Shown here: piece after piece, positions 44,503 through 60,702 of the stretch
Layout: each line of letters opens with the position of its first letter
Numbering within the stretch: the first letter of the stretch is position 1
Assembly (NCBI RefSeq): GCF_030758955.1
Contig: NZ_CP132360.1
Coordinates: 2,362,995-2,426,994, forward strand
DNA from: Agrococcus beijingensis
Lineage (GTDB): Bacteria > Actinomycetota > Actinomycetes > Actinomycetales > Microbacteriaceae
Direction of reading: 5' to 3'
Length of the DNA stretch: 64,000 nt
Program-made: the position numbers and the translations under genes
Notes under the pieces: model-generated
What the model saw: the letters and a program-made list of their open reading frames with translations, nothing else
What the model was told of the DNA's origin: nothing
Databases searched by the model: none

Positions 44503-45300
44503 CTAGTAGCTGTCGGCTTCCGTGCGCGCCTGCTTCAGCCGCGCGACCGCAGCCTCGGAGCCGCGCGCCATGAGCGTCACGTCGGCCGCGACGAACACGA
44601 ACGCGGCGCCGCGGGCGATGCAGCGGTCGGCGTCGGCCTCGGCGAAGGTGTTCACGCCCACCGGCTTGCCGGCGGCGCGCACCGCGTCGATGGCGGCGTC
44701 GACCGCGTCGACCACCGCCTGCTCCGACGGGCGACCGGGGAAGCCCATCGAGCCGGCGAGATCGGTCGGCCCGATGAAGACCGCGTCGACGCCCTCGACC
44801 GCGGCGATCTCTGCGGCGTTCGCCACCGCATCCGCCGTCTCGATCTGCACGGTGACCGACACGTGGCTGTCGGCGCCCTGCACATAGCCCGCGATGCGAC
44901 CCCAGCGCGACGAGCGCGCCAGCGCCGAGCCGATGCCGCGCGTGCCCTCGCGCTCGCCCGGTCCGCCCGGGTAGCGTGCGGCCCGCACGGCGGCGCGCGC
45001 GTCGTCGGCGGTCGAGACCATCGGCACCAGCAGGTTCTGCGCGCCCAGGTCGAGCACCTGCTTGATGATCACCGGGTCGTTCCACGGCACGCGCACGAGC
45101 GTCGTCACCGGGTAGGCGGCGGCGGCGTGCAGGATCGGCAGCAGCTCGCTCACGGTGATCGGGCCGTGCTCGCCGTCGACGAGCAGCAGGTCGGCGCCGG
45201 AGCCAGCCATGATCTCGGCGGCGACGGCGCTGCCGGATGCGTTCCACAGGCCCACGAGCGGAGCCTGCGCGCCCGCGAGGGCCTCGCGGAAGGTGCTCAT
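44503..45300 (-). CDS. hpaI: 4-Hydroxy-2-oxoheptanedioate aldolase, HpcH/HpaI family
   Basis: 265 residues, class II pyruvate aldolase. Motifs are LLVDGEHGPI, LVPMVSTADDAR, VTVQIETADAVANA (metal Glu) and VFIGPTDLAGSMGFPG. It splits 4-hydroxy-2-oxoheptane-1,7-dioate into pyruvate and succinic semialdehyde, the last hpa step. Last gene of the hpa operon, overlapping hpaH in ATGA. Confidence 0.93.
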   Translation of the reverse strand: MSTFREALAGAQAPLVGLWNASGSAVAAEIMAGSGADLLLVDGEHGPITVSELLPILHAAAAYPVTTLVRVPWNDPVIIKQVLDLGAQNLLVPMVSTADDARAAVRAARYPGGPGEREGTRGIGSALARSSRWGRIAGYVQGADSHVSVTVQIETADAVANAAEIAAVEGVDAVFIGPTDLAGSMGFPGRPSEQAVVDAVDAAIDAVRAAGKPVGVNTFAEADADRCIARGAAFVFVAADVTLMARGSEAAVARLKQARTEADSY

Positions 45301-46124
45301 CGGAACGTGACCTCGACCGTGCCCATGTCCTGGTACTCGGCGCGCACGACGTCGCCGGGCTTGACCCACACCGGCCGCGTGAACGAGCCGGCCAGGATCA
45401 GCTCGCCGGCCTCGAGCCGGTCGCCGTGCTGCGCGAGCTTGCCCGCCAGCCACGAGACGCCGAGCGCCGGGTTGCCGAGCACGCCGCCCGAGACGCCGGT
45501 CTCGATGATCTCGTCGTTGACGAGGCAGAGCGAGCCGATCCAGGAGAGGTTGCGGTCGCGCGGGCCGATCTCGAAGTCGCCGACCACCACGGCGCCGAGC
45601 GCCGCGTTGTCGCTGATCGTGTCGACGATCGTGCGGCCCTCGAGCTCGATGTGCGAGTCGAGGATCTCGAGCGCCGGCACCACGATCTCGGTGGCGTCGA
45701 GCACCTGGTCGACCGTGAGGCCCTCGCCCTCGAGCGGCGCCTTCAGCACGAAGGCCAGCTCGACCTCGACGCGCACGTTCGACCACTGCGCGTGCTCGAC
45801 CGTCTCGCCCGAGCGGTAGGCCTGGTCGGCGAAGATGACGCCGTAGTCGGGCTCGGTGATGCCGGTGGCGAACTGCATCGCCTTGCTCGTCAAGCCGATC
45901 TTGCGCCCGACGAGCCGCGCACCGCCCTCCTCGCGGCGCGTGCGCCAGATGCGCTGCACCGCGTAGGAGTCCTCGATGGTGGCCTTGGGGAACCGCGTCG
46001 AGATCTTCTCGATCGTGCCCCGCGAGCGGGTGGCCTCGGCGAGCTCGTCGGCGATCTGCGCCACGGTCGCGTCGTCGAGGCCCCGACCGCGACCTGCTGC
46101 GCTCGACGCGGTTCCCGTGGTCAC
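45297..46124 (-). CDS. hpaH: 2-Oxo-hept-4-ene-1,7-dioate hydratase
   Basis: 275 residues of the hydratase/decarboxylase (MhpD/HpaH) branch of the FAH superfamily. Typical segments: YAVQRIWRTRREEGGARLVGRKIGLTSKAMQ, EPDYGVIF, VEVELAFVLKAPLEG and the late GVLGNPALGVSWLAGKLAQHG. It adds water to the ring-opened product before HpaI cleavage. GTG 46124 lies in GTGA with the hpaD stop, and the start agrees with the family after a short variable lead. Confidence 0.92.
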   Translation of the reverse strand: MTTGTASSAAGRGRGLDDATVAQIADELAEATRSRGTIEKISTRFPKATIEDSYAVQRIWRTRREEGGARLVGRKIGLTSKAMQFATGITEPDYGVIFADQAYRSGETVEHAQWSNVRVEVELAFVLKAPLEGEGLTVDQVLDATEIVVPALEILDSHIELEGRTIVDTISDNAALGAVVVGDFEIGPRDRNLSWIGSLCLVNDEIIETGVSGGVLGNPALGVSWLAGKLAQHGDRLEAGELILAGSFTRPVWVKPGDVVRAEYQDMGTVEVTFR

Positions 46125-47215
46125 AGCTGGTTGCCGATCTTGAAGCCCTTCGACGCCTGACCGCGGTAGGTGCCGTCGTCGTCGCCCTCGCGGGTGTACG
46201 AGAAGCCGTCGGCGCCGATCGTCACCTCCATCTCGCTGGAGTCGGTGCGCTCGACGATCTCGACGACGTTGCCGTCGAGGTCGAGCACGGGGGATGCCTC
46301 GGTGTACCAGGAGGGCACGACCGGGTTGCCCCACCAGTCGCGGCGCTGGTTGTCGTGCACGTCCCAGGTGATGACGGGGTTGTCGGGGTCGCCGGTCCAG
46401 TAGTCCTGCGTGTAGATCTCGATGCGGTGGCCGTCGGGGTCGGTGATGTACAGGTAGAACGCGTTCGAGACGCCGTGGCGGCCCGGTCCGCGCTCGATGT
46501 GGTCCGACATCCGCAGCGCACCGAGCTTGTCGCAGATCTGGATGATGTTGTGCTTCTCGTGGGTCGAGAACGCGATGTGGTGCATGCGCGGGCCGTTGCC
46601 GCCGGTGAGGGCGGTGTCGTGCACGGTGCCCTTGCGGTGCATCCACGCGGCGTAGGTGACGCCCTCGCTGTCCTGGATGTCCTCGGTGACGCGGAAGCCG
46701 AGGTCCTCGAGGTACTTGCGACCGCGGGGCACGTCGGGCGTGACCTGGTTGAAGTGGTCGAGGCGCACGAGCTCGCCGGCCGAGATGAGGTCGTAGCGCT
46801 GGTGGAGGCGCTCGGCGTGCTCGGTGGCATAGAAGAACTCGTAGGGGAAGCCCAGCGGGTCCTCGACGCGCACGCTGTCGCCGAAGCCCTTCTGGAAGCC
46901 GCCCGCACGGCGCTCCGTGCGGCAGCCGAGCTCCTTGTAGTAGGCCTCGGCGGCGTCGACGTCCTCGGGGGTGCGCACGCGGTAGGCGAACGCCGCGACC
47001 GCCGCGACCGGGCCCTTGCGCAGCACGAGGTTGTGGTGGATGAACTCCTCGAACGACCGCAGGTAGATCGCCTCGTCGTCCTCCTCGGTCACGTGCAGGC
47101 CGAGCACGTCGACATAGAACGCGCGGCTGGCGGCCAGATCGGTGACGACCAGGTCCATCGCCGCGCAGCGGATGATGTCGGGCGCGGGAACGCTGGGCTT
47201 GGGGATCTCGTTCAT
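46121..47215 (-). CDS. hpaD: Homoprotocatechuate (3,4-dihydroxyphenylacetate) 2,3-dioxygenase
   Basis: 364 residues, an extradiol dioxygenase of the two-domain VOC type, almost collinear with the Brevibacterium fuscum enzyme but shifted by one. Metal ligands are His154 (RLDHFNQVTPD), His213 (RMHHIAFST) and Glu266 (HRIEIYTQDY). Second-sphere residues Asn156, catalytic His199 (KGTVHD) and Tyr256 are also present. It opens the catechol ring proximally, giving 5-carboxymethyl-2-hydroxymuconate semialdehyde. Substrate confidence is high from the residues and from HpaE, HpaH and HpaI next to it. Confidence 0.95.
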   Translation of the reverse strand: MNEIPKPSVPAPDIIRCAAMDLVVTDLAASRAFYVDVLGLHVTEEDDEAIYLRSFEEFIHHNLVLRKGPVAAVAAFAYRVRTPEDVDAAEAYYKELGCRTERRAGGFQKGFGDSVRVEDPLGFPYEFFYATEHAERLHQRYDLISAGELVRLDHFNQVTPDVPRGRKYLEDLGFRVTEDIQDSEGVTYAAWMHRKGTVHDTALTGGNGPRMHHIAFSTHEKHNIIQICDKLGALRMSDHIERGPGRHGVSNAFYLYITDPDGHRIEIYTQDYWTGDPDNPVITWDVHDNQRRDWWGNPVVPSWYTEASPVLDLDGNVVEIVERTDSSEMEVTIGADGFSYTREGDDDGTYRGQASKGFKIGNQL

Positions 47216-47257: not shown

Positions 47258-48751
47258 TCAGGCGGATGCGCCGAAGCGGGAGGTGTGCACGTCACCGAGG
47301 GTGATGTGCACGGCCTGCTGGTCGCTGTAGAAGTCGAGCGAGCGGTAGCCGCCCTCGTGGCCGAGGCCGGAGGCCTTGACGCCGCCGAACGGGCTGCGCA
47401 GGTCGCGCACGTTGTGGCTGTTCAGCCACACCATGCCGGCCTCGACGTTCTGCGAGAACAGGTGCGCGCGCTTGAGGTTGTTGGTCCAGATGTAGGCGGC
47501 GAGCCCGTACTTGGTGTTGTTGGCGAGCTCGAGCGCCTCCTCGTCGGAGTCGAACGGCGTGATCGACACGACCGGGCCGAAGATCTCCTCCTGGAAGATG
47601 CGGGCGTCGGGCTTGACGTCGGCGAAGACGGTGGGAGCGACGAAGTTGCCCTCGGGGAACGCCTCGGGGCGGCCGCCGCCGGCGAGCAGGCGGCCCTCCT
47701 CCTTGCCGATCTCGACGTACGACATCACCTTGTCGAAGTGCTCCGGGTGCACGAGCGCGCCGACCTCGGTCTTCGGGTCGTGCGGGTCGCCGACCACGAT
47801 GTTCTTCGCCCGCTCGGCGTAGCGCTCGAGGAACTCCTCGTAGATGGGGCGCTCGACGAGGATGCGGCTGCCGGCGGTGCAGCGCTCGCCGTTCAGCGAG
47901 AAGACGCCGAACAGCGTCGAGTCGATGGCGGCGTCGAGGTCGGCGTCGGCGAAGACGACGGCGGGGCTCTTGCCGCCGAGCTCCATCGAGAGCGCCTTCA
48001 GGTGCGGCGCCGAGTTGCCGAAGATGAGCTTGCCGGTGCTGCTCTCGCCGGTGAAGGAGATGAGCGGCACGTCGGGGTGCTTGACGAGCGAGTCGCCGGC
48101 GGTCTCGCCGAAGCCGTTGACGAGGTTGAACACGCCCTTCGGCAGGTCGGCCTCCTCGAAGATGCCGGCCCACAGCGACGCCGAGAGCGGCGTGAACTCG
48201 GCGGGCTTCAGCACCACGGTGCAGCCGGAGGCGAGCGCGGGGCCGAGCTTCCACGACTCGAGCATGAAGGGGGTGTTCCAGGGCGTGATCAGGCCCGCGA
48301 CGCCCTTGGGCTTGCGGTTCACGTAGTTCACCTGGCTGCCGGGCACCTTGTAGGTGTCGTCGCGGCCGGCGACGATCAGGTCGGCGAAGAACCGGAAGTT
48401 CTCGGCGGCGCGCTGCGCCTGGCCGCGCGCCTGCGTGATCGGCAGGCCGGAGTCCCACGACTCGAACTGCGCCAGCTCCTGGTCGCGCGACTCGACGATG
48501 TCGGCGATGCGGCTGAGGATGCGGGCGCGGTCGCGGTTCTTCATGCGCGGCCACGGCCCCTCGTGGAAGGCGCGGGTCGCGGCGGCGACGGCGAGGTCGA
48601 TGTCGGCCTTCTTGCCAGAGGCGGCGACGGTGTAGTCCTCGTTGGTGACCGGGTTGAGCACGCCGAACGTGTCGCCGTCGACCGAGGGCACGCGCTCGCC
48701 GTCGATGTAGTGCGGGATCAGGTCGGGGATGCCTGCGGGCTGGTTGGCCAT
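47258..48751 (-). CDS. hpaE: 5-Carboxymethyl-2-hydroxymuconate semialdehyde dehydrogenase
   Basis: 497 residues, aldehyde dehydrogenase superfamily. Landmarks: LITPWNTPFMLESWKLGPAL, SFTGESSTGKLIFG, MELGGKSPAVVF (general base Glu) and NGERCTAGSR (nucleophile Cys). C-terminal NSHNVRDLRSPFGGVKASGLGHEGG is the HpaE-type ending. It oxidises the ring-cleavage semialdehyde with NAD. ATG 48751 (MANQPAG) is preferred over a longer in-frame ATG at 48775. Confidence 0.94.
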   Translation of the reverse strand: MANQPAGIPDLIPHYIDGERVPSVDGDTFGVLNPVTNEDYTVAASGKKADIDLAVAAATRAFHEGPWPRMKNRDRARILSRIADIVESRDQELAQFESWDSGLPITQARGQAQRAAENFRFFADLIVAGRDDTYKVPGSQVNYVNRKPKGVAGLITPWNTPFMLESWKLGPALASGCTVVLKPAEFTPLSASLWAGIFEEADLPKGVFNLVNGFGETAGDSLVKHPDVPLISFTGESSTGKLIFGNSAPHLKALSMELGGKSPAVVFADADLDAAIDSTLFGVFSLNGERCTAGSRILVERPIYEEFLERYAERAKNIVVGDPHDPKTEVGALVHPEHFDKVMSYVEIGKEEGRLLAGGGRPEAFPEGNFVAPTVFADVKPDARIFQEEIFGPVVSITPFDSDEEALELANNTKYGLAAYIWTNNLKRAHLFSQNVEAGMVWLNSHNVRDLRSPFGGVKASGLGHEGGYRSLDFYSDQQAVHITLGDVHTSRFGASA

Positions 48752-48790: not shown

Positions 48791-49495
48791 TCAGGGCTGG
48801 TTCGGGTGGATCTTCTGGAGGTAGGCGCCCGGCGTCGCGAGGCGATGGGCGCGCACGGCGAGCTCGATCTCGCGCGGGTCCGCGCCGCCCTCGATGAGCT
48901 GCAGGATCGCCTCGTGCTCGTCGACCGACGGCAGCGCCCGGCTCGGCACGAAGGAGAAGGTCGACTGGCGCAGCCGTGCGAGCCGCTTCCAGCAGTTGTC
49001 GATGACGTCGGCGAGCACGCCGTTGGGGGCGATGTCGGTGAGCCGCCGGTGGAAGGCCTCGTTGAGCGCGGTGAACTTCACCGGGTCGAAGCCGGCGAGC
49101 GACTCGCGCATCTGCTCGTTGATCGCGCGGGCGTCGGTGACGTCCGACTTCGAGTAGAGCCCGGCGGCGAGGGAGATCGCGGCGCCCTCGACGAACGACA
49201 GCGTCTCCATCGTCTCGTGGTACTCGAGCTCGTCGATCTCGGCGACGCGGGCGCCGATGTTGCGCTCGAAGGTGACGAGCCCCTCGGCCTCGAGGCGGCG
49301 GATCGCCTCGCGCACCGGCACGACGCTCATGTCGAGCTCGCGGCCGATGGCGTCGAGCACGAGCCGGTAGCCGGGGGAGTAGGTGCCGTCGACGATGCGG
49401 TCGTGCAGCAGGCGGTAGGCGCGCTGCGACTTCGACGGCGCGACGGTGCCGCCCGCCTCCGTGGCCGCGGCGGCTCGCTGGGATCGTGCGCTCAT
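48791..49495 (-). CDS. GntR-family regulator (FCD type) of the hpa operon
   Basis: 234 residues. N-terminal winged helix-turn-helix, about 22-85: SQRAYRLLHDRIVDGTYSPG, RLVLDAIGRELDMSVVPVREAIRRLEAEGL. C-terminal all-helical FCD effector domain with His residues likely binding metal (EAFHRRLTDIA, DEHEAILQLIEGG). It lies within the operon, coupled to the hpaG-like gene before it in ATGA. Palindromic T-C-G-T-A-T-A-C-G-A sites in the hpa/MHS divergent region match the T-x-GT-xx-AC-x-A operator style of this family, so it probably represses both units until an aromatic intermediate binds. Confidence 0.9.
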   Translation of the reverse strand: MSARSQRAAAATEAGGTVAPSKSQRAYRLLHDRIVDGTYSPGYRLVLDAIGRELDMSVVPVREAIRRLEAEGLVTFERNIGARVAEIDELEYHETMETLSFVEGAAISLAAGLYSKSDVTDARAINEQMRESLAGFDPVKFTALNEAFHRRLTDIAPNGVLADVIDNCWKRLARLRQSTFSFVPSRALPSVDEHEAILQLIEGGADPREIELAVRAHRLATPGAYLQKIHPNQP

Positions 49496-51003
49496 GCACG
49501 CTCCAGCGCGGTCTCGGCCTCGTACTTCGCGCGCCACTCGGCGTTCATCGGGAAGAGCCCGTCGACGGGGTGGCCGGCGTCGACCTGCGCCGCGATCCAC
49601 TCCTCCTCCGCCTCGGTCGCGAGGCACTCCTCGACCAGCTCGCGCGCGAGGCCGGGCGGGATCACGAGCAGGCCGTCGCCGTCGCCGACGATGATGTCGC
49701 CGGGCTGCACCGTGGCGCCGCCGCACGCGACGGTCTCGTCGAACGCCCACGGCACGTGCAGCCGCCCGAGCACGGCGGGGTGGCCGCCCCCGTGATAGGT
49801 CGGCACGCCGATCTCGGTGACGACGTCGAGGTCGCGCACGCCGCCGTCGGTGACGAGGCCGGCGGCGCCCAGGTGCCGCGCGCGCAGCGCCAGGATGTCG
49901 CCGAGGGTGCCCGAGCGGTTGTCGCCGCGCGCCTCGATCACGACGACCTCGCCGGGCTGCAGCGAGTCGAACAGCCGCTTCTGGGCGTTGTAGCCGCCGC
50001 CGTGGCTCTTGAAGAGGTCTTCGCGGTTGGGCACGTAGCGCAGCGTGCGGGCCGTGCCCACGAGGCGCTTGCCCGGCTGCGTCGAGCGCAGGCCATCGAT
50101 CGAGACGTTGTTGAGACCGCGCTTGCGCAGCGCCGACGAGAGCGTGGCGAGCGCCACCCGAGAGAGCTGCTCGCGCAGGTCGTCGTCGAGCACGGGCGCG
50201 GCAGCCTCCTGGAAGTCGGACACAGGGCGTCCGGATGCGTCTGCCCACTGCTCCGCCGTCGGCTTCGGCTGGGCGGAGTACGGCGGGAGCACCTGGTCGC
50301 CCACCCGCACGGTGGTCGACAGGCGGCCGGTCGACAGCTGCTCGCCGTCGAGCGCGGTGGCGGTGACCTCGACCTCGACGGTCTGGCCGGGGGAGAAGGT
50401 GGATGCGTCGGCGGGCGTGCCCGTGAGGATCACGTCCCCGGGCTCCAGGGTCACGAGCTGCGAGAGGTCGGAGACGATCTGCGCGAGGGAGAAGATGAGC
50501 GTCGAGGTCGAGTCGGCCTGCACCAGCTCGCCGTCGAGCCAGGTGCGCACCTCGATCGACGCGGGGTCGAGCCGGTCGGCGGGCAGCAGCGCCGGGCCGA
50601 TCGGCGTCATGCCGTCGCCGCCCTTCGAGCGGATGTTGGAGCCCTTGTCGACCCAGCGGAGGTCGAAGACGCCCAGGTCGTTCGACGCGGTGACGGCGGC
50701 GACGTGACCCCACGCATCCGCCTCGCTCACGGCGCGGGCGTGGCTGCCGATGACGATCGCGATCTCGCCCTCGAAGCCGAAGATCTCGGTGCCGGCGGGC
50801 ACGATCACCTCGCCGCCGGTGGAGAGCGAGGTGGCGGGCTTCAGGAAGTAGCCGGGAGCCTCGGGCGTGCGGCCCTTCTGGGCGGCGCGGGCACGGTAGC
50901 CGATGTGCATCGCGAAGACCTTCGAGGGGCGACTGCCGAGCAGCTGCCAGGCGGCCTGTGCGGCGGTGGGGGCCCCGGAGGAGGGCTGCGACGATGCATC
51001 CAT
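49492..51003 (-). CDS. Fumarylacetoacetate hydrolase-fold / RraA-like fusion, probable HpaG function
   Basis: 503 residues in two catalytic domains. The first (about 20-235) is FAH-type: VFAMHIGYRARAAQKGRTPE, FEGEIAIVIGSHAR, LGVFDLRWVDKGSNIRSKGGDG and ILTGTPADASTFSPG, like the HpaG isomerase/decarboxylase. The second (about 270-495) is RraA/HMG-aldolase-like: RGDNRSGTLGDILALRARHLGAAGLVTDGGVRD with the G-D-x20-R-D pattern, typical of lyases that decarboxylate oxaloacetate-like acids. Together they could isomerise and decarboxylate 5-carboxymethyl-2-hydroxymuconate, replacing HpaF and HpaG. ATG 51003 is favoured since TACGAT lies six bases upstream (leaderless). Confidence 0.85.
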   Translation of the reverse strand: MDASSQPSSGAPTAAQAAWQLLGSRPSKVFAMHIGYRARAAQKGRTPEAPGYFLKPATSLSTGGEVIVPAGTEIFGFEGEIAIVIGSHARAVSEADAWGHVAAVTASNDLGVFDLRWVDKGSNIRSKGGDGMTPIGPALLPADRLDPASIEVRTWLDGELVQADSTSTLIFSLAQIVSDLSQLVTLEPGDVILTGTPADASTFSPGQTVEVEVTATALDGEQLSTGRLSTTVRVGDQVLPPYSAQPKPTAEQWADASGRPVSDFQEAAAPVLDDDLREQLSRVALATLSSALRKRGLNNVSIDGLRSTQPGKRLVGTARTLRYVPNREDLFKSHGGGYNAQKRLFDSLQPGEVVVIEARGDNRSGTLGDILALRARHLGAAGLVTDGGVRDLDVVTEIGVPTYHGGGHPAVLGRLHVPWAFDETVACGGATVQPGDIIVGDGDGLLVIPPGLARELVEECLATEAEEEWIAAQVDAGHPVDGLFPMNAEWRAKYEAETALERA

Positions 51004-51155: not shown

Positions 51156-52571
51156 GTGTCCCACAGCACGGCTCACACCGCGACCAGCGCCCGAGAGCGC
51201 AACAAGGTCCTCGCAGCGGTCGTCGTCGGCACCACCATCGAGTGGTACGACTTCTTCATCTACGCCTTCATGGCGAACCTGGTCTTCGCGGCGCTGTTCT
51301 TCGAGCCGGCCGGCCCGGGCCTCGCGCAGATCCTCTCGCTCGTCTCGATCGGCATCTCGTTCCTCTTCCGCCCGCTCGGCGCGTTCCTCGCTGGCCACTT
51401 CGGCGACCGCGTGGGCCGCCGCCCGATGCTCGTCATCACGCTGCTGCTCATGGGCGTGTCGACCACGCTCGTCGGCGCGCTGCCGACCTACGAGGCGATC
51501 GGCGTCATGGCGCCCGTCCTCCTCATGCTCCTCCGCATCCTGCAGGGCCTCTCTGCCGGTGGCGAGTGGGGCGGCGCCGTGCTCATGGCCATCGAGCACG
51601 CTCCGGCCAACCGCCGCGGCCTCTACGGCTCGTTCGTGCAGGCCGGCGTGCCGATCGGCATGCTGCTCGCGACCGGCACGCTCGCAGGCGTTCGCGCCAT
51701 GTTCCCCGGTGACTCGTTCCTCGAGGTCGGCTGGCGCATCCCGTTCTTCGTCTCGATCATCCTCGTGCTGGTCGGCTTCATCGTGCGCCGCTCGGTCGAC
51801 GAGTCGCCCGTCTTCCAGGAGATCAAGGAGACCGCGCAGCAGTCGTCGGCCCCGATCGTCCAGGTCTTCAAGAAGTACGGCGCGATCGTCGCCTTCGCCG
51901 CGATGGTCTTCATGGCCAACAACGCCACGGGCTACATGACGACCGGCGGCTACGTGCAGGGCCTCGCCTCGCGCCCCGTCGACGGCACCCCGCCCGGGTT
52001 CGGCTTCGACCCGGTCGGCGTGCAGCTGGCCGCGTTCGCCGGCTCGATCTCCTGGCTCGTCTTCACGTTCATCGCAGGCTGGGCCTCCGACAAGATCGGC
52101 CGCAAGCCGCTCTACCTCATCGGCTGGGTGACGCTCGCGATCGGCATCGTGCCGCTGTTCATGCTCGTCGAGACCGGTGTGGCCGGTGTGGCCTGGGCGA
52201 CGATCATCCTCGGTGTCGGCCTCGGCCTCACCTACGGTGCGCAGGCCGCCTGGTACGCCGAGTCGTTCCCCGCCTCGGTGCGCTTCTCGGGCGTCTCGAT
52301 CGCCTACGCCATCGGTGCTGTCATCGGCGGCGCCTTCGCCCCGACGATCGCACAGGCGCTGCTGCAGGCCACGGGCAGCACCTGGGCCATCGTGGGCTAC
52401 CTGCTCGCCACCGTCGTGATCTCGATCATCGGCACGCTGCTGCTGCGCGACCGCACCGGCATCCCTCTGTCGATCGAGTTCGAGAACTCGGGCAAGTGGG
52501 ACGACTGGAAGAAGGGCGACGAGTTCGTCGAGGCGTCGCCGGTCGACCAGGCGGCCCGCGTCGAGCGCTGA
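51156..52571 (+). CDS. MHS-family (metabolite:H+ symporter) MFS permease, probable aromatic acid uptake
   Basis: 471 residues, 12 helices. GTTIEWYDFFIYAFMANLVF at the start and GHFGDRVGRRPMLV (motif A) are characteristic of the MHS group (ShiA, ProP, KgtP). RILQGLSAGGEWGGA is the conserved helix 4. Members import organic acids with protons. Being divergent from the hpa operon and sharing operator-like sites, it most likely imports 4-hydroxyphenylacetate or 3,4-dihydroxyphenylacetate. GTG 51156 follows AAAGGAG. Confidence 0.9.
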   Translation: MSHSTAHTATSARERNKVLAAVVVGTTIEWYDFFIYAFMANLVFAALFFEPAGPGLAQILSLVSIGISFLFRPLGAFLAGHFGDRVGRRPMLVITLLLMGVSTTLVGALPTYEAIGVMAPVLLMLLRILQGLSAGGEWGGAVLMAIEHAPANRRGLYGSFVQAGVPIGMLLATGTLAGVRAMFPGDSFLEVGWRIPFFVSIILVLVGFIVRRSVDESPVFQEIKETAQQSSAPIVQVFKKYGAIVAFAAMVFMANNATGYMTTGGYVQGLASRPVDGTPPGFGFDPVGVQLAAFAGSISWLVFTFIAGWASDKIGRKPLYLIGWVTLAIGIVPLFMLVETGVAGVAWATIILGVGLGLTYGAQAAWYAESFPASVRFSGVSIAYAIGAVIGGAFAPTIAQALLQATGSTWAIVGYLLATVVISIIGTLLLRDRTGIPLSIEFENSGKWDDWKKGDEFVEASPVDQAARVER

Positions 52572-52667: not shown

Positions 52668-53120
52668 TCAGGCGACGACCGGGTCGTCGAGCGGGGTGCC
52701 CTGCGCGTAGGGCCCGAAGAAGAAGAGGTCGGCGCCCTCGGCCGTCAGCGCCGTGCCGGTGGCGCGCTCGCCGTCGAACGCCTGCAGGGTCGCGAAGCGC
52801 AGCCGCACCTCGGGCTCGTCGGGGTCGGCGATCTCGATCGCCCAGCCGCCCGCCGTCTCGCGCAGCGCCGGGTCGGCGATCACCACGCGCAGCATGCCGC
52901 CGTGCCCGGTGAGCGCGACGCTGCCGCGGAAGGCGAGCGGGTCGTCGCCCTCGCCGCGCGGGAACCGGAAGCCGTCGTCGACGACCTCCGCACCGCCGGT
53001 GGCCTCGACGCGGCCGTCGGCCATGCCGCGCACGTAGCCGACCAGCGAGGCCTTGACGCCCCACACGAGCGCGCCGCCCTTCAGTGCGCCGTCCTGCAGC
53101 GCGTCGACCTCGGCGGTCAT
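52668..53120 (-). CDS. Cytoplasmic single HtaA-domain protein
   Basis: 150 residues. LVWGVKASLVGYVRGMADGRVEATGGAEVVDDGFRFP, FRGSVALTGHGGMLRVVIADPAL and LRFATLQAFDG follow the HtaA domain pattern, whose members in corynebacteria bind heme on the cell surface. This one has no signal peptide, anchor or repeat, so it appears to be cytoplasmic. Its ATG overlaps the LysR stop in ATGA. Being linked to a P450-controlling LysR gene, it could bind heme or a hydrophobic ligand; this is inference. Confidence 0.78.
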   Translation of the reverse strand: MTAEVDALQDGALKGGALVWGVKASLVGYVRGMADGRVEATGGAEVVDDGFRFPRGEGDDPLAFRGSVALTGHGGMLRVVIADPALRETAGGWAIEIADPDEPEVRLRFATLQAFDGERATGTALTAEGADLFFFGPYAQGTPLDDPVVA

Positions 53121-54046
53121 CGGGGCTGCGGCCAGGGCAGCGCCCTCGCGAAGTCGATGAGCGCGCGCGTGCGCGCGGTCGGCTCGGGCGAGCGCGGCCA
53201 GATGACGTCGATGCCGACCGGCGGCACGGCGGGCGAGATCTCGAGCATGGCCACAGGGTAGCCCTCGTAGCTCGCCGGGTTCGCGGGCCGCTGCACGAGC
53301 ACGCCGTAGCCCAGCCCGCGTGCGACGAGCGCCCGCACCGCCTCGGTGCTCTGCACCCGGTGGCGCACGCGGGGCACCAGCCCGTGCGCGGCGAACAGCG
53401 ACATCGTGTGCTCGCTCGACGGCGGCGCGTCGAGCAGGATCAGGTCGCGCTCGACCAGCTGCTCGAGCCGCACCTCGCCCGTGCCCGCAGCCGCCAGCGG
53501 GTCGTCGCCCGCCACGATCACGTGCGCGGGCAGCTCGAACAGCTTCGCCCGCTGCGGCTCGCCGGGGATGAGCGTGTCGTAGACGAACGCCACGTCGACG
53601 CGGCCCGTTTCGAGCGGCCCCCGCAGCCGGTCGTGCGTCGCCTCGAGCACCGTCAGCTCGACGCGCGGGTGCAGCCGGCCGAAGCCCTGCAGCAGCGGCG
53701 GCAGCACCGTCGGCGCGAGCGTCGGGTAGCAGCCGATGGTGATCGGCCCGGCCAGCTCGCCCGGCGCAGCCCGCAGCGAGGTCTCGAGCTCGCGCGACGA
53801 CGCGAGCAGCGCGCGGGCGCGAGCGACGACATCCGCCCCCGTGCTCGTGAGCGTGAGGCCGCGCGCGCGGCGCCGCACCGTGAGCTGCATGCCGAGACCT
53901 CGCTCGAGCTCGCTGAGCGCCTCCGACACCGCCGACGGCGAGACGTGCAGGCGCGCTGCGGCGCCGGCGACCGTGCCCTCCTCGGCGGCGCAGACCAGGA
54001 ACGAGAGCTGCCGGAGCGTGAAGCCCGGCGCGTCGAGCAGATCCAT
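53117..54046 (-). CDS. LysR-type transcriptional regulator
   Basis: 309 residues. Winged helix at about 8-68 (FTLRQLSFLVCAAEEGTVAGAAARLHVSPSAVSEALSELERGLG) and a substrate-binding domain from about 95 (GPITIGCYPTLAPTVLPPLLQGF). It is divergent from the P450 fusion gene by 135 bases, the standard arrangement for a LysR activator and its target. In that interval I see T-rich stretches but no convincing T-N11-A dyad. The HtaA-domain gene is translationally coupled behind it. Confidence 0.92.
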   Translation of the reverse strand: MDLLDAPGFTLRQLSFLVCAAEEGTVAGAAARLHVSPSAVSEALSELERGLGMQLTVRRRARGLTLTSTGADVVARARALLASSRELETSLRAAPGELAGPITIGCYPTLAPTVLPPLLQGFGRLHPRVELTVLEATHDRLRGPLETGRVDVAFVYDTLIPGEPQRAKLFELPAHVIVAGDDPLAAAGTGEVRLEQLVERDLILLDAPPSSEHTMSLFAAHGLVPRVRHRVQSTEAVRALVARGLGYGVLVQRPANPASYEGYPVAMLEISPAVPPVGIDVIWPRSPEPTARTRALIDFARALPWPQPR

Positions 54047-54181: not shown

Positions 54182-57100
54182 ATGACGAGCAACGAGGCTC
54201 CCGTCGCCGATTGGGTGACGATCCCGGATCTGTACCGCGACCCCTTCCCGATCTACGAGCGCCTGCGCGCCGAGGGCGGCGTGCACTGGGTGCCAGCCGT
54301 CGGCCGCTACCTGATCACCTCCTACGCGGCCGTGCACGAGACCGAGCTCGACCAGACCGTCTTCTCGGCGAACGAGCAGGGCTCGCTGCAGATCCGCGCG
54401 ATGGGGCACTCGATGCTGCGGCGCGACGACCCCGAGCACTACCTCGAGCGCAAGGCCTGGCAGCCGACGCTGCGCCCGGGCGTCGTCAAGCGCCACTGGC
54501 GGGGCGTGTTCGAGGAGGTCGCGGAGCAGCACCTCGACGCGATGATCGCGAAGGGGGAGGGCGCCGACCTGATCTGGGACTTCGCGGCGCCGTTCGCCGC
54601 CGAGAGCCTGCGTCGGATCCTGGGGCTCCACAACGCCACCCAGCAGGATCTGCAGCGCTGGTCGCAGACCCTCATCGACGCCACCGGCAACTACGCCGAC
54701 GACCCGGAGGTGTGGGCGAAGGGCAAGCGCTCCTTCGACGAGGTCGACGCGGTGCTCGACGAGATGCTGCCGTGGCACGCGGCCAACCCGAACGAGTCGC
54801 TGCTGTCGCAGCTGCTGCGCATCCCCGACTACGAGATGCCGATGGAGCGCATCCGCGCCAACGTCAAGATGACGATCGGCGGCGGGCTGAACGAGCCGCG
54901 CGACGTGCTCGGCGTCGCCGCCTGGGGGCTGCTCGCCCACCCCGAGCAGCGCCGCGCCGTCGAGGCCGACCCGAGCCTCTGGCACGCGGCCTTCGACGAG
55001 ACGCTCCGCTGGATCGCCCCGATCGGCCTCTACTCCCGCCAGACCACCCGCGAGGTCGAGCTCACCGGCGTGCGGCTGCCCGCGGGGGCGCGGCTGGGCA
55101 TCTGCATCCTCTCCGCCAACCGCGACGAGCGGGTCTGGGACGACGCATCCGCCTTCGACATCCGCCGTGAGGTCAAGCCGCACCTGGCCTTCAGCAAGGG
55201 CGTGCACGTGTGCCTCGGCGCCTGGGTCGCGCGCTCCGAGATCGCCGACGTGGCGCTGCCGATGCTGTTCGAACGGCTCCAGGGGCTCGAGCTCGTGCCC
55301 GAGCGGCCGGCCGAGATCGGCGGATGGGTCTTCCGCGGCATGCTGCAGCTGCCGGTGCGCTGGTCGTCGGTGACGACGCGCACCGCTGGCGGGCCCGCAC
55401 CCGCCGCGGCCGTCGCCGCCGGCCCCGCCCCGCGCATCGGCATCGTCGGCTCGGGGCCGGCCGGCAGCTTCACCGCGCAGGCGCTGCGCCGCAGGCTCCC
55501 GGGTGCCGAGATCGACGTGCTCGATGCGCTGCCGGTGCCCTACGGGCTGATCCGCTCGGGCGTCGCCGCCGACCACCACGGCACGAAGTCGGTCGCGCGG
55601 CAGTTCGACCGGCTGTTCCTGCAGGACGGGGTGCGGTTCCGCGGCAACCTGCGCGTCGGCACGGGCTCCGGTGCGGACTCCGACGGCACGACGCCCGCCG
55701 CCGGCGGCACGTCGATCGAGGCGCTCCGAGGCGCCTACGACGCCGTGGTGCTCGCGACCGGGCTGCGGCTCGACCGCCCGCTCGGCATCCCCGGCTGCGA
55801 GCCCGGGCGTGCGCTCAGCGGCGTGCACGGCGCCGGTCGCATCACGCGCCTCCTGAACGCGCATCCTGACGAGCCGGCCGCGACCTCCCTCGGCGCGACG
55901 ACGACCATCGTCGGCCACGGCAACGTCGCCGTGGACGTCGTGCGGCTGCTGGCGCGCGACGAGGCGGAGCTCGACGGCACCGACGTCGACGACGAGGCGC
56001 GGCGGGTGCTGGTCTCCGAGCTGCGCACGATCCACGTCGTCGGCCGCAGCGCGCCGACGGCCGCGAAGTTCGACCCCGTCATGGTGCGCGAGCTGGCGGG
56101 CCTGGCGGGCGTCGCGCATCACGTGCACGGTGCCGATCTGCAGCTGGTCGAGCCGGGCAAGGACGCCCGCGTCGACGCGGTGCGACTGCTTGACGAGACG
56201 CGCCCGAGCCTGCCGCGCGTCACGGTGCACTGGTGGTTCGGCCTCACGCCTGAGCGGCTCGAGGGCGACGGCTCGGTCGAGCGCATCGTGTTCGTCGGTG
56301 CCGACGCCCAGGCAGAGGTGTCGATCCCGACCGACTCGGTGGTGACGGCGGTCGGCTTCGCCGGCGACGCCGAGTCGCTCGCCGTGCCCGGTGCTCACCA
56401 GGACGGCCGGGTGGAGGCGGGCCTCTACACCGCTGGCTGGCTGCGGCGCGGCCCGCGCGGCACCATCCCCGATCAGCGCACCGATGCCCGCGAGCTCGCG
56501 CGCACCATTGCCGAGGATCTCGAGACCGGCGCGGTGCCGATCGGCGCTCCGGGCCTGCCCGAGGTCGCCGGCGAGATCGGCTTCGACGGCTGGCGCCGCA
56601 TCGACGTGCGCGAGCAGCTCGGCGCCGCGCCCGGGCGCTCGCGGGCGAAGCTGCGCGGTGTCGCCGCCATGCTCGAGGCCGCGGCCGACGACACGATCCC
56701 GCTGCCCGAGATCACGGCGGTGGCGGATGCGTCCGGTGACGCCGGCAGCGTCGGGAGGGCGCCGGTGACGGTGCTGTTCGGCACCGAGTCGGGCGGCGCC
56801 GAGCTGGTCGCCGAAGAGCTGCGGCGCACCCTCGCGGCTCGAGCGGATGTCGTGGTGCAGGATCTCGCCGACATCACGCCCGACGACCTCGACGCATCCC
56901 GACTGCACCTCGTGGTCTGCGCCACCTACGGCGACGGCGAAGTGCCGACGTCGGCGCGGCCGTTCCATCGGGCGCTCGCGGCGCGCCCCGACCTCGCGGG
57001 CCTGCGCTACGCCGTGTTCGGCATGGGCGACCGCAGCTACACGAAGACCTACTCGCGCGGCAGCGAGCTCGTCGACGAGGCGCTCGCGGCCTGCGGTGCC

Positions 57101-57217
57101 CAGCGGCTCGGCGAGTACGGCCGGCACGACGCGGGCGGCCCTGTGCCGGCTGCCGAGGCGGCGGTCGACTGGGCCGAGGGGGTGCTCTCGGAGGTGCTGG
57201 CGCCCGTGGCTGCCTAG
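54182..57217 (+). CDS. Self-sufficient cytochrome P450: P450 - adrenodoxin-reductase-like FAD domain - FMN/flavodoxin-like domain
   Basis: 1011 residues in one open frame. P450 domain (about 1-400): E-T-L-R at 273-276 (ExxR) and heme loop FSKGVHVCLG with thiolate Cys344. The I-helix reads GGGLNEPRD (233-241), without the usual acid-Thr pair. FAD/NADP domain (about 415-850) of the FprA/adrenodoxin reductase type: GIVGSGPAG (420-428), YGLIRSGVAADH, VGHGNVAVDVVR (577-588), GWLRRGPRGTIP. FMN domain (about 860-1005): LFGTESGGAELVAEEL, CATYGDGEVPTS, FGMGDRSYTKTYSRG, like MioC and sulfite-reductase flavodoxin domains. Electrons would pass NADPH to FAD to FMN to heme. Substrate unknown; LysR divergent. 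ATG 54182 follows GAGGA. Confidence 0.92.
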   Translation: MTSNEAPVADWVTIPDLYRDPFPIYERLRAEGGVHWVPAVGRYLITSYAAVHETELDQTVFSANEQGSLQIRAMGHSMLRRDDPEHYLERKAWQPTLRPGVVKRHWRGVFEEVAEQHLDAMIAKGEGADLIWDFAAPFAAESLRRILGLHNATQQDLQRWSQTLIDATGNYADDPEVWAKGKRSFDEVDAVLDEMLPWHAANPNESLLSQLLRIPDYEMPMERIRANVKMTIGGGLNEPRDVLGVAAWGLLAHPEQRRAVEADPSLWHAAFDETLRWIAPIGLYSRQTTREVELTGVRLPAGARLGICILSANRDERVWDDASAFDIRREVKPHLAFSKGVHVCLGAWVARSEIADVALPMLFERLQGLELVPERPAEIGGWVFRGMLQLPVRWSSVTTRTAGGPAPAAAVAAGPAPRIGIVGSGPAGSFTAQALRRRLPGAEIDVLDALPVPYGLIRSGVAADHHGTKSVARQFDRLFLQDGVRFRGNLRVGTGSGADSDGTTPAAGGTSIEALRGAYDAVVLATGLRLDRPLGIPGCEPGRALSGVHGAGRITRLLNAHPDEPAATSLGATTTIVGHGNVAVDVVRLLARDEAELDGTDVDDEARRVLVSELRTIHVVGRSAPTAAKFDPVMVRELAGLAGVAHHVHGADLQLVEPGKDARVDAVRLLDETRPSLPRVTVHWWFGLTPERLEGDGSVERIVFVGADAQAEVSIPTDSVVTAVGFAGDAESLAVPGAHQDGRVEAGLYTAGWLRRGPRGTIPDQRTDARELARTIAEDLETGAVPIGAPGLPEVAGEIGFDGWRRIDVREQLGAAPGRSRAKLRGVAAMLEAAADDTIPLPEITAVADASGDAGSVGRAPVTVLFGTESGGAELVAEELRRTLAARADVVVQDLADITPDDLDASRLHLVVCATYGDGEVPTSARPFHRALAARPDLAGLRYAVFGMGDRSYTKTYSRGSELVDEALAACGAQRLGEYGRHDAGGPVPAAEAAVDWAEGVLSEVLAPVAA

Positions 57218-58404
57218 GCCTCGCCCATGGGCTCCTTCGGCAGCTTCCGCACGCGCGCCCGGCGCTTCGGCCGCGCCGGGATCATCGAGCGCATCTCCTC
57301 GAGCCTGCCGAAGCACAGCAGCCGGTCCTCGGCGTGCAGCACCTCGCTGCCCTTCGGCGTCGGGATCACGGTGGTGCCGCGGTGGAGCGTCAGCACGGTG
57401 ATGTCGCGGGCGCCGAGGCCCGACTCGGCGAGCGTCCTGCCGACCAGGTCGGCGTCGCCGTGCACGACCAGCTCGGCCACGCCGAAGCCGGTCGAGACGC
57501 TCAGCCGCTCGCGCACGTCGATCTGCGGGAAGGCGACCTGGTTGTCGATGTAGTCGATGATCGCGCCGGCGACGTCGAGCCGCGTCGCCGTCTCGATGCC
57601 CTCGAGGCCCGGGGAGGAGTTGACCTCCATCACGAGCGGCCCGTCATTGCCCTCGAGCATGTCGACGCCGGCGACCTTGAGGCCCATGATCTGCGCGGCG
57701 CGCACCGCGACGCGCTCGTAGTCGGGATCGAGCGTGACCGCCTCGACGCTGCCGCCGCGGTGCACGTTGGAGCGGAACTCGTCGCCCTGCGCGCTGCGCC
57801 GCATCGCGGCGACGACGCGGTCGCCGACGACCAGGGCGCGGATGTCGCGGCCCCTGCTCTCGGCCACGAAGTGCTGGATCAGCACCTGCTGCCGCGTGCT
57901 CTGCAGCGTCTCGATGATCGCCTCGGCCACCTTGATCGTGGGCGCGAGGATGACGCCGATGCCCTGCGTGCCCTCGAGCAGCTTCAGCACCACGGGGGCG
58001 CCGCCGACCCGCTCGATCGCCGGGATCACGTCGGCGCGGTCGCGCACGAAGGTCGTCGCCGGCATGTCGATGTCGTGGCGCGCCAGGATCTGGGTGGCCC
58101 GCAGCTTGTCGCGCGAGTTGGTGATGCCGTTGGCCGTGTTGGGCGTGTAGACGTCCATCTGCTCGAACTGCCGCACGACGGCGGTGCCGAAGTAGGTGAT
58201 CGAGTTGCCGATGCGCGGCAGGATCGCGTCGTAGTCGGTGAGCTGCCGGCCGCGGAACTGCAGGTCGGGCGCGTCGCCGGCGAGATCGATCGCGAAGCGC
58301 AGGGTGTTGAGCACCTTGACGTCGTGGCCGCGATCGACGGCTGCGGCACGCAGGCGCCTCGTGCTGTACGAGCGCGGAGCGCGGGAGAGGATGGCGAGCC
58401 TCAT
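57214..58404 (-). CDS. RimK-like ATP-grasp ligase with C-terminal RCK_C (TrkA_C) domain
   Basis: 396 residues. The first 300 are a RimK/LysX-type ATP-grasp ligase: LPRIGNSITYFGTAVVRQFE, KLLEGTQGIGVILA, SRGRDIRALVVGDRVVAAMRR and VAGVDMLEGNDGPLVMEVNSSPGLEGIE, with E and N as Mg ligands. Such enzymes add glutamates to ribosomal protein S6 or another acceptor. The last 100 residues (FGVAELVVHGDADLVGRTLAESGLGARDITVLTLHRG) form a TrkA_C/RCK_C regulatory domain, an odd addition. Its stop and that of the P450 gene share CTAG. Divergent from the PF05618 gene. Confidence 0.88.
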   Translation of the reverse strand: MRLAILSRAPRSYSTRRLRAAAVDRGHDVKVLNTLRFAIDLAGDAPDLQFRGRQLTDYDAILPRIGNSITYFGTAVVRQFEQMDVYTPNTANGITNSRDKLRATQILARHDIDMPATTFVRDRADVIPAIERVGGAPVVLKLLEGTQGIGVILAPTIKVAEAIIETLQSTRQQVLIQHFVAESRGRDIRALVVGDRVVAAMRRSAQGDEFRSNVHRGGSVEAVTLDPDYERVAVRAAQIMGLKVAGVDMLEGNDGPLVMEVNSSPGLEGIETATRLDVAGAIIDYIDNQVAFPQIDVRERLSVSTGFGVAELVVHGDADLVGRTLAESGLGARDITVLTLHRGTTVIPTPKGSEVLHAEDRLLCFGRLEEMRSMIPARPKRRARVRKLPKEPMGEA

Positions 58405-58438
58405 TCTGGGCACACTGCCTTCCTGGTTGGATGAGCGC

Positions 58439-58927
58439 ATGGGCGACGACCATCCTGGCACCTCGGCGAGCGTCGGGTGGCGCGAGTGGATCGCCCTGCC
58501 CGACCTCGGTGTCGCGCAGGTGAAGGCCAAGCTCGACACCGGTGCGCGCACGAGCGCGCTGCACGCCTTCGACCTCGAGGAGTTCACGCGCGACGGCGCC
58601 GAGTGGGTGCGCTTCTCGGTGCATCCGTGGCAGCGCTCGCAGGCCGACCAGGTCGTCGTCGAGTGCCCCGTGCACGACCGTCGCGTCGTGCGCTCCTCGA
58701 CCGGCCACGAGCAGTCGCGCATCGTCATCCGCACAGCACTCGCGCTGCGGGGGCGCACGATCACGACCGAGGTGACCCTCTCGCGACGCGACGAGATGGG
58801 GTTCCGGATGCTCGTGGGGCGCGAGGCGCTCCGCCAGGGCTTCGTGGTCGATGCGTCGCGCTCCTACCTCGGCGGGCGCCCCGCGCGCGCCGTTCGGCGA
58901 CGGAACCTGGGTCGCGATGGCGCGTGA
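58439..58927 (+). CDS. RimB-like PF05618 'ATP-dependent zinc protease' family protein
   Basis: 162 residues. WREWIALPDLGVAQVKAKLDTGARTSALHAFDLEEF shows the D-T-G-A motif of PF05618, a retropepsin-like fold despite the zinc-protease name. The end MGFRMLVGREALRQGFVVDASRSYLGG is also typical. In Pseudomonas the equivalent RimB modulates RimK-made glutamate tails, so facing the RimK-like gene is meaningful. ATG 58439 is chosen; an in-frame ATG at 58391 would overlap the divergent gene's start. Confidence 0.85.
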   Translation: MGDDHPGTSASVGWREWIALPDLGVAQVKAKLDTGARTSALHAFDLEEFTRDGAEWVRFSVHPWQRSQADQVVVECPVHDRRVVRSSTGHEQSRIVIRTALALRGRTITTEVTLSRRDEMGFRMLVGREALRQGFVVDASRSYLGGRPARAVRRRNLGRDGA

Positions 58928-59921
58928 GTCGTTCGCGATCGGCGGCCTGCGGGTGCGGCCGGGGCAGGCGAAGAGCGTCGACCTGCCGATCGCGCGGCTC
59001 GTCACGGGCGGCGACGTCTCGTTGCCGGTGCGCGTCGTGCACGGCATCGAGCCCGGCCCGGCGGTGTGGCTCGACGCGGCCGTGCACGGCGACGAGGTCG
59101 TCGGCGTCGAGGTGATCCGCCAGGTGCTGGCGTCGGTCTCGCCGCGCACGCTGCGCGGCACGCTGGTCGCCGTGCCGGTGGTGAACGTGCTCGGCTTCAT
59201 GACGGGCGACCGCTACCTGCCCGACCGCCGCGACCTGAACCGCTCGTTCCCCGGCTCTGCGCGCGGGTCGCTCGCGAGCCGCATCGCGCACCTGCTGATG
59301 ACCGAGGTGGTGGGGCGCTGCGATGTGGGCATCGACCTGCACACCGGCTCCGACCGCCGCGACAACCTGCCGCAGATCCGCGCCGACCTCGACGACCCCG
59401 AGACGCGCAGGCTCGCCGAGGCGTTCGGGGCGCCGGTGATGCTGCACGCGCGGCTGCGCGACGGCTCGCTGCGGCAGGCCGCCCGCGACGCCGGCGCGAT
59501 CGCCCTGCTCTACGAGGGCGGAGAGGCGCTGCGCCTCGAGGAGGCGCCGATCGTCGCGGGAGTGGCGGGCGTGCTGCGGGTGCTGGCGGCGCTCGGCATG
59601 CTCGACGACGCCCCGGCGCCGGAGGTCGCGTCGGCCACCAGTCGCAGCAGCGGCTGGGTGCGGTCGCGCGGCGAGGGCATCCTGCACCTCGAGGTGGCGC
59701 TGGGCGATCAGGTCGTCGCCGGCCAGCGGCTGGGACGGGTGGCGGATGCGTTCAGCACGCGGGGCAGGCTGGTGCGGGCCGATCGGGCCGGGCTGGTCAT
59801 CGGCCTCGCGCGCGCCCCGATCGTGCACGCGGGCGACGCGGTCGCGCACATCGCCGAGCTGCTCGACGAGCCGGCTGCGCCCGGTCGCCTGCTGCGCCGA
59901 CCGCCTGAGCCGACCTGCTGA
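58917..59921 (+). CDS. Succinylglutamate desuccinylase/aspartoacylase (AstE/AspA) family protein
   Basis: 334 residues, zinc carboxypeptidase fold. Metal-binding H-x2-E is HGDEVVG, the later His is in DVGIDLHTG, and DRRDLNRSFPG is the family's N-R-x-F-P-G substrate motif. A C-terminal beta-rich lipoyl-like segment (about 240-320, GEGILHLEVALGDQVVAGQ) follows. The members hydrolyse N-acyl amino acids. Overlap of 11 bases with the RimB-like gene and the RimK-like gene opposite suggest a joint role in amide or peptide-tail turnover. Its stop lies in a 13-base tandem repeat. Confidence 0.87.
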   Translation: MARESFAIGGLRVRPGQAKSVDLPIARLVTGGDVSLPVRVVHGIEPGPAVWLDAAVHGDEVVGVEVIRQVLASVSPRTLRGTLVAVPVVNVLGFMTGDRYLPDRRDLNRSFPGSARGSLASRIAHLLMTEVVGRCDVGIDLHTGSDRRDNLPQIRADLDDPETRRLAEAFGAPVMLHARLRDGSLRQAARDAGAIALLYEGGEALRLEEAPIVAGVAGVLRVLAALGMLDDAPAPEVASATSRSSGWVRSRGEGILHLEVALGDQVVAGQRLGRVADAFSTRGRLVRADRAGLVIGLARAPIVHAGDAVAHIAELLDEPAAPGRLLRRPPEPTC

Positions 59922-59949: not shown

Positions 59950-60702
59950 TCAGCCGACCAGCCCGAGCCCGCCGGTCACGATCAGCGCGACGCCGCCCAG
60001 CACCGACAGCCCGATGATCGCCCAGCGCACGACGGTGCGGCTCACCAGGTGCGCGAGCCGGTTGCCGAGCAGCACGCCCGCGACCACCGGCACCGCGAGC
60101 ACGAGCCACGCCCACAGCGGCCAGTCGGGCGATCCCTCGGGCGCGACGAACGGCCGCACCGCCACGATGGCGCCGCTGATCAGCACCCAGAAGGGCTGCA
60201 TGGTGGCGACGAAGGTGCGGTCCTGCCAGCCCGACAGCAGCGAGTAGACGCCGACGGCGGGCGCGCCCATGCCGACGCTCGAGTTGAGCACGCCGATGGC
60301 GGTGCCGGTCGCGACGCGCAGCACCGGGCCGTCGTGCGTGCGCGCGGTGCGGGTGAACGCCACGCTGATCACGACGCCGACGACGGCGATCACGCCCACC
60401 GCGATGCGCAGCACGTCGGTGTCGAGCCCCTTCGCCAGCAGCAACCCCGGCACCATCAGCGCCAGCGCCGGGATCGCGATCCACAGCAGCCGCCGCCAGT
60501 CGACCTCGCGCCAGACCTTCGGCAGGATGATGATGCAGGCGATCGCGCCATAGAGGTTCACGACCAGCACCGCCGCCAGCGGTCCGGCCACCAGCGCGAT
60601 GGCCGGGGTGACCACCAGGCCCCAGCCCATGCCGATCATGCGCTGCCCGGCGGCGCCGATGAGCACCGCGACGAGCGCGACGACGAACGAGAGCAGGTCC
60701 AC
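59950..60702 (-). CDS. TauE/SafE (TSUP) family membrane exporter, copy 1
   Basis: 250 residues with eight hydrophobic segments. GAAGQRMIGMGWGLVVTPAIALVAGPL and VLNSSVGMGAPAVGVYSL are the two TSUP repeats. The family moves sulfite, sulfoacetate or other organic anions. GTG 60702 is eight bases after the IclR stop, so an IclR-TSUP operon is likely. It is clearly related to the copy at 62927-63688, sharing ATMQPFWV and TRTA-x-T-x-DGP. Confidence 0.88.
   Translation of the reverse strand: MDLLSFVVALVAVLIGAAGQRMIGMGWGLVVTPAIALVAGPLAAVLVVNLYGAIACIIILPKVWREVDWRRLLWIAIPALALMVPGLLLAKGLDTDVLRIAVGVIAVVGVVISVAFTRTARTHDGPVLRVATGTAIGVLNSSVGMGAPAVGVYSLLSGWQDRTFVATMQPFWVLISGAIVAVRPFVAPEGSPDWPLWAWLVLAVPVVAGVLLGNRLAHLVSRTVVRWAIIGLSVLGGVALIVTGGLGLVG

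Follow-up and report, generated by a model that had tools for sequence, protein, structure and literature searches.

Whether a cytochrome P450 that carries all its redox partners in one chain represents a new kind of monooxygenase, or a known kind in a new arrangement, is the question raised by a gene of Agrococcus beijingensis located in the 64,000-nucleotide stretch of contig NZ_CP132360.1 analysed here (the window). The window's genome is a single contig of 2.89 Mb, and the gene, at 54182-57217 (+), is an unbroken frame of 1011 codons that a simple gene caller, after training on the window, also predicts. The Pfam matches in its product follow the order p450, Pyr_redox_2/NAD_binding_8 and Flavodoxin_1, in agreement with the preliminary description of this DNA, in which a P450, an FprA-like flavin adenine dinucleotide (FAD) domain and a flavin mononucleotide (FMN) domain had been read in one frame in this order. 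Both the sequence and the predicted model locate these domains and their cofactor motifs in the chain (Table 1), and the key residues of the FAD and FMN loops are kept in 51/51 aligned fusions. The label FAD/NADPH domain was right about the type, which is that of adrenodoxin reductase; however, NADPH as the pyridine nucleotide is not secured, because all the 51 aligned fusions have Arg-Ser where adrenodoxin reductase and FprA have an Arg-Arg pair. With the heme and all the electron-transfer domains in one chain, the protein has the make-up of a self-sufficient P450.

The arrangement differs from those of the natural systems to which it can be compared. CYP116B (P450RhF), which carries a [2Fe-2S] ferredoxin domain, is also a three-domain self-sufficient P450, but its tail is of the phthalate-dioxygenase-reductase type with the [2Fe-2S] domain included, and the Pfam scan found no Fer2 match in the fusion. 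CYP102A1 (P450 BM3) has an FAD domain of the cytochrome P450 reductase (CPR) type, as stated in a section of a review (PMC9687028). In CYP102-type enzymes this CPR-like domain of the ferredoxin-NADP+ reductase (FNR) fold follows the FMN domain, whereas the fusion has an FAD domain of the adrenodoxin reductase type, placed between the P450 and the FMN domain. XplA/XplB is built from similar components, namely an adrenodoxin-reductase-like FAD protein (41% identical to the FAD domain of the fusion), a flavodoxin (41%) and a P450. By contrast, the flavodoxin of XplA is N-terminal to the P450, the reductase is a separate protein and the P450 is only 25% identical to that of the fusion, in which the flavodoxin is C-terminal and the reductase part of the chain. 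The module order of XplA, flavodoxin-P450 with a separate reductase, is given in an extract of PMC10820124, and we read it again on plasmid p5 of Rhodococcus DN22 (L034), where flavodoxin and then P450 share one frame and a separate adrenodoxin-reductase-like gene lies upstream. Thus, the contrast with CYP102, CYP116B and XplA drawn in the preliminary description is borne out. Among solved structures, the FMN domain is closest to cindoxin, but P450cin, cindoxin and cindoxin reductase are three separate proteins, and the last resembles ferredoxin reductases, according to a section of PMC9687028. GcoA/GcoB and SyoA are different too, their P450s being 26-30% identical to that of the fusion; the partner of GcoA is a separate 2Fe-2S/FAD reductase in the part of PMC6021390 that deals with it.

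The P450 itself is of a known kind. By naming convention, P450s with more than 40% identity belong to one family and those with more than 55% to one subfamily. The P450 domain is 61.3% identical over 390 aa to CYP1232A24 (PDB 6g71, entitled 'Structure of CYP1232A24 from Arthrobacter sp.'), which places it in subfamily A of CYP1232, and in the P450 tree, to be read with a long-branch warning for 6g71, the latter branches as sister group of the fused clade, the two together having a support of 99 in the Shimodaira-Hasegawa-like approximate likelihood-ratio test (SH-aLRT). Judged by identity and tree, it belongs to CYP1232, a known family for which a solved structure and published work exist. CYP1232A24 is a 405-residue P450 chain in the PDB, outside the fused clade, and its partners, placed by a review in a gene cluster, are presumably separate genes. 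The I-helix lacks the acid-threonine pair, as had been noticed, with Asn237-Glu238 in its place; however, GGGxNEPRD is present in 65/65 fused and 37/43 unfused relatives, as well as in CYP1232A24, the remaining six unfused relatives have related NEP motifs, and Asn237-Glu238 aligns with the Gln-Glu amide-acid pair of GcoA and SyoA. Lack of the acid-alcohol pair therefore characterises a group already known, and we rejected the I-helix as a mark of novelty. The proposal of an undescribed monooxygenase class goes too far on this account, and what stands of it is the domain order, which is apparently undescribed.

To compare the fused and unfused states, we used 108 distinct P450s (151 matches before duplicate removal) whose identity is 38% or higher across more than 80% of the P450 domain. 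All the 65 relatives at least 66% identical to the window P450 carry flavin domains, 60 of them intact and in a single frame and the other 5 broken or cut, while the 43 relatives at most 62% identical are without exception unfused; this gap is valid for the sampled loci, 30 of 65 P450-only places from one genome sample having been classed. Among the incomplete fusions, one has a stop inside the flavodoxin part in an otherwise single frame (L093), three are split over two frames (L022, L026, L057) and one is cut by a contig end (L121); for the first four, sequencing error, decay or, in L026, a genuine two-gene form are all possible.

The partners differ sharply between the two states. A flavodoxin is encoded within 4 kb of 64/65 fused P450s vs 0/43 unfused, and a [2Fe-2S] ferredoxin within the same distance of 1/65 fused vs 42/43 unfused; the sole fused exception, L085, owes it to a neighbouring unfused P450 with its own ferredoxin. 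At the unfused locus L046, Pfam confirmed p450, Fer2 and Pyr_redox_2/Reductase_C proteins, while no ferredoxin match was found near the window's fusion, which thus departs from the bacterial class I type with separate [2Fe-2S] ferredoxin and ferredoxin reductase (FdR). In these sequences, a single branch separates the two partner systems. Both states also occur together in one genome, where the fusion sits a few kilobases from an unfused CYP1232-like P450 (43%) accompanied by ferredoxin and FdR on the opposite strand (L085:7419-14698).

Three residues of the P450 follow the partner. Lys339, in the heme-ligand loop, is found in 65/65 fused vs 0/43 unfused relatives, Leu345, in the same loop, in 64/65 vs 2/43, and Gln94, at the C-helix end, in 63/65 vs 1/43; from P450 topology, all three would lie on the proximal, partner-docking face. 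Across the alignment, Lys339 marks the change from iron-sulfur to flavin partners. 6g71 has the residues of the fused group at these three positions and at 102, 310 and 319 (Trp319), those of the unfused group at 33, 167 and 285, and Leu, the majority residue of neither, at 71 and 307.

The P450 tree was made by a quick method, with SH-aLRT as its only support measure, on 95 rows (14 near-copies removed beforehand, 6g71 included). A single change accounts for the fused state on it, and the fused clade has a support of 92. The FMN domains of 27 fusions form one clade (SH-aLRT 98), and their FAD domains fall within one clade (SH-aLRT 98) that also holds the unfused L181 and L182 in an open fork. 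As far as these trees tell, the P450 lineage seems to have given up iron-sulfur partners for flavin ones and to have fused with them once. The ancestral P450 would have been served by a [2Fe-2S] ferredoxin and its reductase; an adrenodoxin-reductase-like/flavodoxin pair would have replaced them, and the three genes would then have fused once. That 6g71 shares residues of the fused group, and that a review places flavodoxin and reductase in its cluster, suggests partner exchange first and fusion second; direction and order are what we infer from these observations. According to a section of that review, a flavodoxin and a flavodoxin reductase are part of the Arthrobacter cluster to which the two P450s of Klenk et al. 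belong (PMC9687028). Searches of plasmids, of 38 genomes of the genus of G1304 and of 395 of the family of G1099 yielded no closer relative of 6g71 that has separate flavodoxin genes.

Beyond the genus, the figures on the distribution of the fusion are samples, with genomes drawn from larger groups, and 24 of 80 pattern-matching stretches were confirmed. In the window's genus the fusion is in one open frame in 16/24 genomes, and frame-split in one more. It was found in 20/398 genomes sampled from the window's family (one of these interrupted by a stop, another frame-split), in 10/396 of the order sample and in 16/315 of the family of G303, one of them cut by a contig end. In the class sample of 296 genomes only the window's own genome has it, nine other genomes with E <=1e-60 matching by the P450 part or, in G034, by separate reductase and flavodoxin genes. 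Of the confirmed loci from genome_contigs, which span Agrococcus, Leucobacter, Microbacterium, Labedella, Serinicoccus, Arthrobacter and the record Micrococcales bacterium 31B, 22/24 are full-length and 20 of these are in one frame.

As to what the enzyme does, the gene adjoins a homoprotocatechuate (hpa) cluster. CYP1232A24 reportedly O-demethylates homovanillate and 3,4-dimethoxyphenylacetate, as Klenk is said to have described in 2019. We consider it probable, at roughly 60%, that the fusion is a self-sufficient CYP1232-type P450 which O-demethylates methoxylated phenylacetates, aromatic acids derived from plants, to feed the adjoining hpa pathway, with electron route, pyridine-nucleotide preference, turnover, reaction, substrate, regulation and transport all inferred. 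A hydride from NAD(P)H would reduce the adrenodoxin-reductase-type FAD domain, from which electrons would pass singly to the C-terminal FMN domain; this domain, mobile on the two linkers, would reach the heme domain on its proximal face, at the Cys loop with Lys339. At the heme, homovanillate or 3,4-dimethoxyphenylacetate would then be O-demethylated, which would yield 3,4-dihydroxyphenylacetate. This compound, on which HpaD acts, would be cleaved and degraded by the adjoining hpa products, while the major facilitator superfamily (MFS) protein could import the methoxylated acid and the divergent LysR protein sense it.

The link to hpa was counted within 10.5 kb, in loci whose flanks extend 6.5 kb or more upstream and 3 kb or more downstream. 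Of the fused loci, 17/43 have an hpa gene nearby and 16/43 have at least two, compared with 3/16 and 2/16 for the unfused. The order hpaIHDE - GntR - fumarylacetoacetate hydrolase (FAH)/RraA - MFS - HtaA - LysR - fusion is kept in Agrococcus and two Microbacterium loci (L019, L024), and with variations in L013, L018 and L022, Labedella and Micrococcales 31B being among the variants. Since hpa genes are also near the unfused relatives L082, L102, L103 and L139, the link seems to be older than the fusion. Genome-wide, HpaD is found in 51/53 genomes with the fusion, 19/21 with the unfused type, 31/36 without a CYP1232 match and 3/14 controls; hpaD being nearly universal in these families, we rejected co-occurrence at genome level as evidence, and only adjacency carries weight.

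Several of these results weigh against the reading of a self-sufficient demethylase with the history given above. The genome-wide HpaD counts are one of them, and 12 of the 17 hpa-linked fused loci are from the window's genus. The 61% identity to CYP1232A24 does not fix the substrate. The model of the fusion has a whole-protein predicted template modelling (pTM) score of 0.63, so that no domain-domain contacts are predicted. In the P450 tree, no single branch sets the outgroup apart from the other rows, and the branch of 6g71 is long. Finally, the stage with separate P450, reductase and flavodoxin in CYP1232 comes from one review sentence, and no such locus was found.

The substrate leaves room for two other explanations, both unlikely. 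In the one that we consider slightly less improbable, the same self-sufficient enzyme would ring-hydroxylate an acid such as 4-hydroxyphenylacetate, replacing HpaBC, without any demethylation. In fact, no HpaB or HpaC was found among the scanned proteins of the hpa cluster, a scan limited to the cluster, so that another source of 3,4-dihydroxyphenylacetate is needed; however, CYP1232A24, which is the nearest relative to have been characterised, reportedly acts by O-demethylation in the papaverine pathway, and GcoA and SyoA, which come next in structural kinship, O-demethylate aromatic compounds. A section of PMC9687028 also ties CYP1232A24 to the papaverine pathway. Alternatively, the substrate could be unrelated and the hpa genes neighbours without a common pathway, as the 26/43 fused loci with enough flank that have no hpa gene nearby would allow, a count that is also adverse to the demethylase; such an accident does not account well for the gene order from hpaIHDE to the fusion kept in Agrococcus and Microbacterium, with its variants in Labedella and Micrococcales 31B, nor for hpa genes beside some distant unfused relatives.

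We regard as very improbable that the heme domain acts mainly as an H2O2 peroxygenase with auxiliary flavin domains. The alignment of Asn237-Glu238 with Gln-Glu of GcoA and SyoA would favour it, because peroxide use is reported for SyoA-type enzymes and a 2025 paper by Harlington names a rare class of heme peroxygenases in its title; but an auxiliary role would not demand flavin domains intact in 60/65 relatives and key FAD/FMN residues kept in 51/51. There is hardly any probability left that a missed stop or an assembly error has created the fusion: 5/65 relatives are indeed frame-split, stopped or cut, but the 60 intact one-frame fusions come from many assemblies and the window's genome is a single contig, and we rejected this explanation on the grounds of recurrence.

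The gene beside lysR, encoding an HtaA-domain protein, is associated with the flavodoxin partners. Among the loci with 3 kb upstream, an HtaA-like gene is within 6 kb of 40/58 fused and 0/36 unfused ferredoxin-type P450s, whereas a LysR-like gene is within the same distance of 53/58 and 30/36, respectively. Moreover, HtaA-like genes follow unfused operons of FAD reductase, flavodoxin and P450 in L058, L184, L185 and L187 (partial matches in L058 and L187). Because it is near the fused loci, absent from the ferredoxin-type ones and found after these separate operons, the HtaA-like gene tracks, in the gene neighbourhoods compared, the flavodoxin system and not the P450 clade. The HtaA-domain family binds heme. 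In G466 the same kinds of module occur in another order: L186:2781-5783 (-) holds, by Pfam, FAD reductase - flavodoxin - P450 in one open stretch of 1001 codons from stop to stop, with a different P450 and an HtaA-like gene downstream; this fused form was found in 1/4 genomes of the genus. With somewhat less than even confidence, one may go further and propose a new redox class, heme, adrenodoxin-reductase-fold FAD and FMN in one chain without iron-sulfur, which would have been rewired from a ferredoxin-dependent lineage, with the Lys of the heme-ligand loop as partner switch, and then fused; the modules would have been fused a second time, independently, in L186, and HtaA would be an accessory protein, possibly for heme delivery.

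What is new here is apparently the architecture and its history, the P450 kind itself being known. No title among the matches listed in the open-access literature describes a P450 - adrenodoxin-reductase-type - flavodoxin chain, an earlier description in a subscription journal being possible. Few natural P450 systems consist of a single chain, and the gene extends this short list by a domain order that is apparently undescribed; if active as proposed, it could be of use in biocatalysis, for lignin-relevant O-demethylation with NAD(P)H as only additive. The existence of close relatives in both states makes the change from ferredoxin to flavodoxin as electron donor, and the gain from fusion, directly testable, with Lys339 as the first candidate.

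Table 1. Features of the fusion gene and of its surroundings in the window.
Feature	Position	Strand	Remark
Whole fusion gene	54182..57217	+	P450 - FAD reductase - flavodoxin, 1011 aa; homologous one-frame fusions elsewhere
P450 domain, CYP1232A24-like	54182..55366	+	residues 1-395
I-helix GGGLNEPRD	54878..54904	+	residues 233-241; Asn-Glu replaces acid-threonine pair
Heme-ligand loop, K339 to Cys344	55196..55213	+	Lys339 separates flavodoxin-fused from ferredoxin-type relatives
Linker 1	55367..55423	+	columns 396-417 span 11-40 residues (51 aligned fusions)
FAD/NAD(P)H domain	55424..56689	+	residues 415-836; adrenodoxin reductase/FprA type; GxGP and GxGNVAxD kept; Arg622-Ser623
Linker 2	56690..56761	+	columns 836-861 span 20-43 residues (51 aligned fusions)
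FMN domain, cindoxin-like short flavodoxin	56762..57205	+	residues 861-1008
LysR-type regulator, divergent, beside fusion	53117..54046	-	
HtaA-domain protein (PF04213)	52668..53120	-	overlaps lysR by 4 bases
MFS transporter	51156..52571	+	best NCBIfam model metabolite/H+ symporter, below cut-off
Fumarylacetoacetate hydrolase - RraA-like fusion	49492..51003	-	PRK12764 above cut-off; HpaG models below
GntR-type regulator	48791..49495	-	models below cut-off
hpaE, 5-carboxymethyl-2-hydroxymuconate semialdehyde (CHMS) dehydrogenase	47258..48751	-	TIGR02299 above cut-off
hpaD, 3,4-dihydroxyphenylacetate 2,3-dioxygenase	46121..47215	-	TIGR02295 above cut-off
hpaH-like hydratase	45297..46064	-	TIGR02312 best, below cut-off
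hpaI-like aldolase	44503..45300	-	TIGR02311 best, below cut-off

In the hpa cluster, the protein with FAA_hydrolase and RraA-like parts perhaps serves the HpaG step. On the other side, adjoining the fusion at 57214-59921, we observed a RimK that ends in a TrkA_C domain, together with a RimB-like retropepsin and a DoeB-like deacylase, the latter two below cut-off; a rimK-rimB pair is thus present here in an actinobacterium. Further on, a pair of similar small membrane proteins, encoded about 2 kb apart at 59950-60702 (-) and 62927-63688 (-), gave no NCBIfam match at the thresholds used and by eye resemble TSUP-type permeases.

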